DNA of 64,000 nt from Tubiluchus corallicola (lineage: Eukaryota > Priapulida > Priapulimorpha > Priapulimorphida > Tubiluchidae), in NCBI GenBank assembly GCA_030141605.1, contig JAQGDQ010000163.1:402548-466547 (forward strand), read 5' to 3'. The notes under the pieces are model-generated. The model was not told the origin of the DNA. It ran no database searches and was given only the letters and a program-made list of their open reading frames with translations. The translations under genes were made by a program, and so were the position numbers. Of the stretch, positions 32,501-35,500 are shown piece after piece; the stretch's first letter is position 1; every line of letters starts with the position of its first letter.

Positions 32501-35500
32501 ATTCGAGAAACACCATCATACACAATGGCAACTTTGGCCGAGAGTTAGCCACAGAAAAACATGGCTGCCTCCTTGCCGAAACAGCAATGTTATAAAAATT
32601 ATTGCATTTTATGTTTTACATTAAAAAATATGCTTTCATGAACTTACAAAAAATGATAAAATTCCCGGCTAGGTGTGCAATAAAAAATGTTACCCAGGTG
32701 GTCAGATGGAAACAGAAGTATTTAAGGCGTTACCTTAAAATTACACTTCATTTCTGGACACCCAATAGCTATCACACTAACATTATATGGTGTAGTGCCT
32801 ATGCTTGCTAAAATTTCAGGCGCATCAATCAAATCAAGCTGCACATGCTGTCAAATCAAGCAGTTAATACAAAAAAGTGGAAAACGTGTAAAAAACAATA
32901 GGCTTGCTATTTATAACACTAAAATGCTGAGTAACACTGCACAACCATAAACTCATTATAAACATGCCCTAATTCACTGATTAAAGCCATGCAATGCAGT
33001 TACTGATCTAACTAAAGTTACCAAGGATACGATCACTTCCTGGAAATAAGGTTTTTCCTGTAAGCAATTCAGCCATGATGCAGCCTACAGACCATATATC
33101 AACTAAAAACAAAGCAGAATGACTAATGTTAATAATAAAGTTAGTCAAACAAAAGCGTAAACTATTGATAGGCTAACATACACTGAAACACTACAAGTCC
33201 CGTAACTTCACAGTAGTTCTTTTAAAATTCATTATCAGATTATCCAGAATAAGTTCCAGTGTCATCCGGTAAAATTTTTGTAACGATCCATTCTGCGTTC
33301 GGTATGACTGATAATTCATGCAATACTGAAGGAAAGGAGCACGTAATTAGTTAACGAAGTAGTGAAACAACACAAATGAATTTATAGCATCTCAGAATGC
33401 AACATCTAATACATGCATGCCATCAAGGTTAAGTGTTGAATTGGAAAACAAACAAAGCACAAGACAAGGAGAATGACGCTTACAAGTATCAGACATCCAT
33501 TCTGGAATGTAAAAACTAAAAGTCATTAAGCAATGGTTAAGCAGACAAGAAGCCACATAATGCTACTTGGCAACTTGGTCAATCAATGAGTTAATAAAAC
33601 ATAATGCATTTAATGCTTGTTGTTAATAATAACTAACACATCTATCATGCAACCTTATTACATGAACTTTGGAGACAAGAACATTTATTTCTACTGTCTT
33701 TATATTTCAGTTAATAGGCAAGAACGTAGCACAAACTGCATGTCTAATGCAAGCTGGTGAATTTACCAGTAAGCAGGTAGAAAACATGCATGTAATGTTG
33801 TCTGCTATACTATACTGCTAAGCAAAAAAAAAACAAAAAAAAAACAAAAAACATCTTGTGTAAAAACTAGTATGTCAGGTGAGCAGGTACCAGGTTATTA
33901 AACTGATCAATTTGATGAGTAAATAATAATGTCTTAGGTAAATAAAATTACTACTGTTAACCTTTCACAAAGATCTTACACGACAATGTCAGCCAGCACA
34001 GTAAACAAACAAATAACCAAATAACTGTGGGTAAAACATGGTTTCTTGTGGCATACCAAGTTCTGAAAGCATCCCAAAGGAATGAAGGAACCCAAAAATT
34101 GTAAAATTTCGTCTTGTCTCAAAAATAATTAAACAATAAAGAGTGGGACCTGAAGGATACAATCAGTTCCGGGAAACAAAGTTCGTCCGGAAAGTAGCTC
34201 GGCCATTATGCAACCAACAGACCAGATATCCACTGAAAGACAAGCATGTGTTTTACATCGAAACTTAAAAATGTGGAAGAAATTGTTGTTGTTGTTGTTG
34301 TTGTTGTTATCTTTCCACTGTAGCTAGTGTTCTGATGAAAAAGTAATTAAAAAAATGAAGTTAAAAAGCATACAGCAGATTAAACTACTTAGTACCTAAA
34401 AAGTTAAGACAAAAAAATCAACAAAAATAAGTACACTAGTATATGATCTTGCTTTGTACAAAGGTGTAATATATTATTAGCCCACATGTTTGTGACTTGT
34501 GTGCTATCAGAAGCTACCTACTGTACTAGATCATACCCCTTGACAGTCACACTTGTGAAATTATGCATTTTTTGTGAAATAATCACAATCTTATTTTTTT
34601 AATTATCGTTGCCCATTGTCGCAATTACTTTTGGTATTAATATGGTGTAAGAAAGCAGCCCTATAATTGTAACGCTAATTGTAGTTGTCTCTCAACTAAC
34701 TACAGCTACTACAGTTTAGAATACTCACGTGTTTGACTATAATGCATCCAGTTTAGCATGACCTCTGGTGCTCGGTACCACCGCGTCGCTACATAACCTG
34801 TCATTTCATCGTCTGTGTGTCTAGCGAGACCAAAATCAAGAATCTAAACCCAACAAATTTATAACATTCGATTACTATATGACCTAGCAAGCAGGACACA
34901 TTGAACGTTTAGCCAAAAAACATAAAAACAACCTAATACACAAATAATCTACTAAGCATTCACAGAAAAATAACTGTGCATCTGTACCGCTCTACTTGTG
35001 CACTCATTGCACACACACACATGCACGCACGCACACATATAACTGCCTTAATCACTGTGGTTAGTATATAACAAACTCTCCCCAGGTTAAAGCAACTAAT
35101 GGGAAAAATAGAATATTGCAGCAAAAGTTGCTTAGGGGTGATTTGGATGATGACAAGCTTAACTGTGGCATCACCACCAATAATACAAAACTTCAATTTA
35201 AAATTTTAAAATGTCAATTTTAAAATTTTAATCTCCTTTACCTTTAATTCACAATCCTCATTAACGGCTATATTACTGGGCTTTAGATCCTAAAAACAAT
35301 AAAAAAGAACAATTAGCCAATAATGGAAAGTAATAAAAAAATGATCAAACTAGCCTCATCAATAAAACGTGTCATGTATTTGTAATACTAATTCATTACA
35401 TAATACGAAAAATTTGACGCAAACATGTAGCACAAGCAGTAAATTACTACCAACATGCCATAAAATTCGCCCCAAAATTGGCACATAAAAGATGTTTCCT

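Follow-up and report, generated by a model that had tools for sequence, protein, structure and literature searches.

The window, by which is meant the whole 64-kb stretch of DNA analysed here, carries on its minus strand, from 43145 to 29548, a whole p38 MAP kinase gene with 10 coding exons per transcript, the predicted product of which comprises 360 amino acids whichever of two copies of exon 7 is spliced in. The assignment to p38, already made in the preliminary description, is borne out by the TGY activation loop encoded in exon 6, which we take to be the hallmark of p38 MAP kinases, and by comparison of the spliced protein with PDB chains named MAPK14 (p38-alpha), presumably human, which are matched with an E value of ~1e-168 over 318 residues. 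Among the best 60 of 2,705 matching PDB sequences, all 60 are p38-alpha/MAPK14 by name, and the identity with one MAPK14 chain is 75%.

The coding exons, all on the minus strand, start with exon 1 (43027..43145), recognized by motif and reading frame, with a donor, GTAAGC, that was read, not scored. Exon 2 (38281..38410) ends at a U2-type GTGAGT donor and is followed by exons 3 (36490..36548), 4 (35915..36056) and 5 (48 nt, 35242..35289), which were placed by coordinates and reading frame. The activation loop with TGY lies in exon 6 (34729..34843), the U2-type GTGAGT donor of which is common to the two alternative exons, namely exon 7B (34161..34232), the first in the transcript, and exon 7A (33031..33102). 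Downstream of both copies stand exon 8 (159 nt, 31817..31975), exon 9 (30698..30871) and exon 10 with the stop codon (29548..29612), the latter two again placed by coordinates and reading frame. Human p38-alpha splits the stretch that corresponds to the single exon 8 of the window. The intron between exons 9 and 10 contains a tandem array of a 34-bp unit (29984-30183; 5.9 copies, 89% matches).

Several other features are present in the window. On the minus strand, a BEL/Pao-type retrotransposon (55101-59893) was found, in which one long frame contains Peptidase_A17 and H2C2 domains that pass their cut-offs, together with an integrase core that does not, with DUF1759 in the frame 58709-59893, as well as a NUDIX-domain frame (5375-6043; Pfam E 7e-15). 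The plus strand carries frames resembling the exons of a nucleolar GTPase gene (18817-25068), presumably nucleostemin/GNL3, with an MMR_HSR1 domain in one of the two frames scanned (20647-20943), and an F-box protein frame (52206-53249) in which a leucine-rich repeat signal falls short of its cut-off.

An old duplication of exon 7

Two exons of 72 nt each, both in phase 1 at either end, lie where the preliminary description had placed them, with a spacing of 1,058 nt from 7B to 7A. Equal length, equal phase and compatible outer splice sites give them the structure of a mutually exclusive pair. The four residue differences that had been reported in about 25 (T/S, K/R, S/T and H/Y) are found at exon positions 15, 17, 23 and 25, so that the two products differ within the alphaF-alphaG segment; copy 7B ends in GTD-Y and copy 7A in GSD-H, the final residue being encoded by a split codon that reads His when the exon ends in C and Tyr when it ends in T. 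At the nucleotide level, 18 of the 72 positions differ. When the split codons are included, 15 of the 25 codons are unlike, 11 of them synonymously and four nonsynonymously, and the Nei-Gojobori proportions amount to a saturated pS of 0.76 and a pN of only 0.078, in agreement with the earlier proposal of an old duplication followed by purifying selection on both copies.

The first 8 intron bases after 7A and 7B are identical (8/8), while the next 92 agree at 28 positions; beyond those 8 bases no intron homology was found, and alignments of the 400-nt flanks do not surpass those of shuffled sequence. Saturated silent sites, low pN and flanks without similarity thus establish the copies as old and constrained, and a haplotype or assembly duplicate is ruled out by the silent sites together with the absence of flank identity. 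A six-frame scan of the 64-kb window (BLOSUM62 threshold 25) revealed no third copy of the exon.

The segment concerned is the one in which the JNK genes (MAPK8/MAPK9) possess their alternative exons 6a/6b (also numbered 7a/7b), extending from alphaF to the start of alphaG. This correspondence, proposed earlier, is upheld, as the two JNK1 forms among PDB chains align with the pair residue for residue. The JNK alternative exons have the same 72-nt length and phase, and the JNK1 chains in the PDB end at the junction in GRD-Y ('isoform 1') or GTD-H ('isoform 4'), thereby showing a His/Tyr difference at the same junction residue as the p38 of the window. Unlike JNK, however, the gene of the window is a p38 by its loop and its best match, its pair differs at four of 25 residues compared with eight in JNK1, and it has no known regulator.

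The preliminary description had left the choice between a convergent and an ancestral feature, and of these a duplication within p38 is now favoured, within what 25 residues and possible gene conversion allow to be settled. Copies 7A and 7B share 21 of 25 residues with each other, 22 each with human p38-alpha, and 15 to 17 with the JNK chains. At five positions 7A and 7B are alike and differ from both JNK1 isoforms, which agree with each other at three of these, whereas the H/Y codon is the only site that splits the p38 pair as the JNK1 pair is split; the exons of the window therefore do not group copy by copy with JNK 6a and 6b (five sites against one). These comparisons favour an origin of the exon duplication within the p38 lineage. 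As 7A and 7B resemble one another no more than either resembles human p38-alpha, the duplication may go far back within p38, and the human lineage would then have lost one of the copies.

An origin of the pair before p38 and JNK diverged, followed by homogenization within p38, is improbable. Besides the shared H/Y split, it can be adduced in favour of such an ancestry that all four differing positions fall among the eight that vary between the JNK1 forms (chance 0.0055), but the same four are also among the eight positions that vary in human p38 paralogues, and a parallel choice of sites with JNK was accordingly discounted; the residue identities and the five sites uniting 7A and 7B likewise stand against it. 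In a search for relatives, viral collections (6 and 124 pattern matches) and prokaryotic ones (40) gave none confirmed by tblastn.

Splice-site classes around exon 7

The donor of the two copies, earlier described as an unusual GTATCC, is indeed the same in both, but its class had been overlooked, for it is U12-type, that is, of the minor spliceosome. The U12-type 5' splice site has the consensus RTATCCTT, and by motif and matrix score the minus-strand sites GTATCCTT that follow exon 7B (34153..34160) and exon 7A (33023..33030) belong to this type. With matrices that are self-made approximations of published consensuses, the two exon 7 donors reach 14.8 and 14.2 bits under the U12 matrix and -1.8 and -2.3 under the U2 matrix, compared with 4.8 to 9.9 bits as U2 and -7.9 to -24.2 as U12 for the seven other donors scored. 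A U12 score of at least 14.2 is attained at three of 19,370 AT/GT sites in the window, two of which are these donors. The window contains the exact 8-mer GTATCCTT four times, 1.54 occurrences being expected, and as many are present in 6 of 100 shuffles, so that the evidence lies in its position at both exon ends and not in its number; as the two donors are homologous, they count once, not twice, in support of the U12 class. A further strong U12-like 5' splice site, GTATCCTTG, is located at 43827-43834 on the plus strand, opposite to p38. Two U2-like sites were also noted near exon 7A: TTG|GTAACT at 33021-33020 on the minus strand (4.4 bits), 9 nt inside the intron that follows 7A, the use of which would add three in-frame codons and require a U2 acceptor at exon 8, and a GT site 6 nt inside the exon (3.2 bits).

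As the preliminary description had stated, each copy has an acceptor of its own, and both acceptors are U2-like, with pyrimidine fractions of 0.65 for 7B and 0.82 for 7A. The acceptor of exon 8 is U12-like; its pyrimidine fraction of 0.35 is the lowest of the 10 acceptors scored, the others ranging from 0.53 to 0.88. U12 branch sites are close to TTCCTTAAC and lie within about 20 nt of an acceptor that lacks a pyrimidine tract. A putative U12-type branch site, AATCTTAAC (31987..31995, minus strand, coordinates hand-counted), has its branch A 12 nt from exon 8. Sequence and spacing are as in U12-type introns, yet 194 of 7,419 AGs in the window (itself included) score equally well or better, and its score of 5.1 is similar to or below those at exon 4 (5.0 at 9 nt) and exon 9 (7.0 at 23 nt), which makes the branch site weak evidence on its own. 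In the 64-kb window, Rfam gave no matches at the gathering threshold.

Given intact sites at both copies, it is distinctly unlikely that a single copy is in use and the other is a dying duplicate. The lower pyrimidine fraction at the 7B acceptor would suit such a pseudoexon, but a dead copy so old should show decay, whereas silent sites are saturated at a pN of 0.078, both frames are open, both acceptors are present and the 8-nt U12 donor is intact in both.

Taken together, these features indicate that the one p38 gene very probably yields two full-length kinases through the choice of 7B or 7A, with the two classes of splice site interlocked and substrate docking tuned by the outcome. The U2 donor of exon 6 would join the U2-type acceptor of either 7B or 7A, and the U12 donor of the copy included would then be joined to the U12-type acceptor of exon 8 by the minor spliceosome. 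Splicing of 7B to 7A would pair the U12 donor of the one with the U2 acceptor of the other, and splicing of exon 6 to exon 8 would bring a U2 donor to a U12 acceptor; both would be disfavoured. The legal mRNAs would thus be 6-7B-8 and 6-7A-8, and exactly one copy would enter each. Since a U12 site would have to be paired with a U2 site whenever the two copies were joined or both left out, exclusivity is probably built into the arrangement. The choice would depend on which of the two U2 acceptors, and which of the two U12 donors, outcompetes the other, probably with a bias from tissue-specific factors. We infer that each site acts within its class and that both isoforms are expressed.

An arrangement of this type has been described for JNK, where two U2-type acceptors likewise compete with two U12-type donors according to passages of PMC8329584, and the interlock in MAPK8/9 is also treated in parts of PMC3584512 and PMC6717393. 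Incompatibility of U2 and U12 sites is described as enforcing exclusivity rarely, and in clusters of two exons only (PMC6071210); among 629 human clusters of mutually exclusive exons it was recorded in no more than 5 (PMC5740500). Exons 11/11a of TMEM87A/B, which encode a protein unrelated to p38, are likewise reported to exclude each other at a minor intron in which a U2 acceptor is embedded, and in mouse Tmem87b both alternative exons measure 72 bp, as in the p38 of the window (passages of PMC6717393 and PMC8329584). Minor introns are given for 69% of MAPK genes (PMC6865273), and the presence of one is stated for MAPK11 and p38MAPK (PMC8199999). The exon pair of the window lies directly before the intron between exons 7 and 8. 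In human p38, the minor intron presumably lies at the same place.

Ordinary cassette behaviour, in which tandem inclusion or double skipping would be common, is very unlikely. Every combination of the copies is open, since joint inclusion (+24 aa) and double skipping both stay in frame; frameshift and decay are thereby ruled out as the enforcer of exclusivity, and neither could remove such splicing errors. Loss of the exon that precedes a minor intron has also been documented, for MAPK12 in a cell line with mutated U12 snRNA (PMC8329584) and for 10 mouse minor-intron genes including MAP kinases (PMC6717393), the latter text noting that in Mapk9 it accompanies the use of the alternative exon. 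Both outcomes, however, require joins between U12 and U2 sites, and tandem copies would presumably put a second set of 24 alphaF-region residues into a compact kinase fold.

Exclusivity brought about by RNA pairing, steric crowding or regulatory proteins acting on plain U2 introns is hardly credible, as the donors score only -1.8 and -2.3 as U2 sites, the 1,058-nt spacing rules out steric exclusion, and the scans for RNA pairing and NOVA motifs gave nothing convincing. The complementarity of 33 between introns 7B-7A and 7A-8 exceeds all 200 mononucleotide shuffles (maximum 32), but it consists of a T-run against an A-run; for introns 6-7B and 7A-8, 6 of 200 shuffles score at least as high, and the last of the three pairs tested is at chance (116 of 200). 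NOVA is said, in parts of PMC8329584 and PMC6717393, to act on the JNK pair. The motif YCAY occurs here at 1.33-1.61 per 100 nt in the three introns around the exon pair versus 0.87-1.20 in four others, a comparison made with no shuffle control, and in the seven of the gene's 10 introns counted, no more than three fall within any 50 nt.

The His/Tyr residue and its place among MAP kinases

The residue exchanged at the split codon is number 229 in the p38 of the window and 228 in human p38-alpha, the exon segment beginning at 204 of the 360-residue p38-alpha chain, and it is aligned by register with Tyr231 of ERK2 (358-residue chain 3o71, in which the query begins at 195). In the available part of PMC7016714, Tyr231 of ERK2 is listed as a residue of the DEF pocket, and in that of PMC7666158 the p38 DEF pocket, in the N-terminal half of alphaG, is described as holding the FENEF motif of ATF2, residue 228 not being named there. 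A His/Tyr switch at this position would tune substrate docking, and on the strength of the alignment with the DEF-pocket Tyr231 a switch of docking specificity is probably the most likely function of the exon pair. Human p38-alpha and -gamma carry His at this position and p38-beta and -delta carry Tyr, so that in human p38 the His/Tyr choice is spread over gene copies instead of being spliced. Since the four exchanged positions vary among the human p38s, they may also be loosely constrained and not tuned, in which case tolerance alone could suffice.

Other splice variants of p38 affect other parts of the gene, namely MAPK14 isoforms 1 and 3, Exip and Mxi2; the alternative of exon 10 or 11 in Mapk14 presumably corresponds to the CSBP1/2 region. 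For mouse Mapk14, PMC1431733 describes isoforms 1 and 3, which differ in using exon 10 or exon 11, as well as a form with a truncated N terminus. The sections available of PMC8699841 give Exip and Mxi2 of p38-alpha as the sole reported spliced variants of the human p38s, these replacing the last 106 and 81 residues, downstream of the exon 7 site. A survey of tandem exon duplication in human genes (PMC9741552) contains in its main text none of the terms MAPK, JNK, U12 or spliceosome. The top open-access literature matches listed show no p38 gene with such a pair; automatic gene models may already list the exons. Mutually exclusive exons of the U2/U12 kind are known, and the p38 pair would be a further case.

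It is conceivable, if tentative, that an old U12-type intron at this MAPK position served as a platform on which duplicates of the preceding exon were exclusive from birth, and that JNK and, separately, p38 built on it the same His/Tyr switch in the docking pocket. Since p38 activity is reported to raise U6atac in human cells (in the part available of PMC3728624), the choice of p38 isoform could moreover be self-regulated under stress.

JNK being the MAPK case in print, p38 would be the second MAPK family to show the same layout at the same place. If this is true, minor introns may favour the evolution of the adjoining exon into a clean two-way switch. The comparison points to a single docking-pocket residue as the thing switched, and the organism would be an animal in which splicing, not gene copies, may set the docking specificity of p38.
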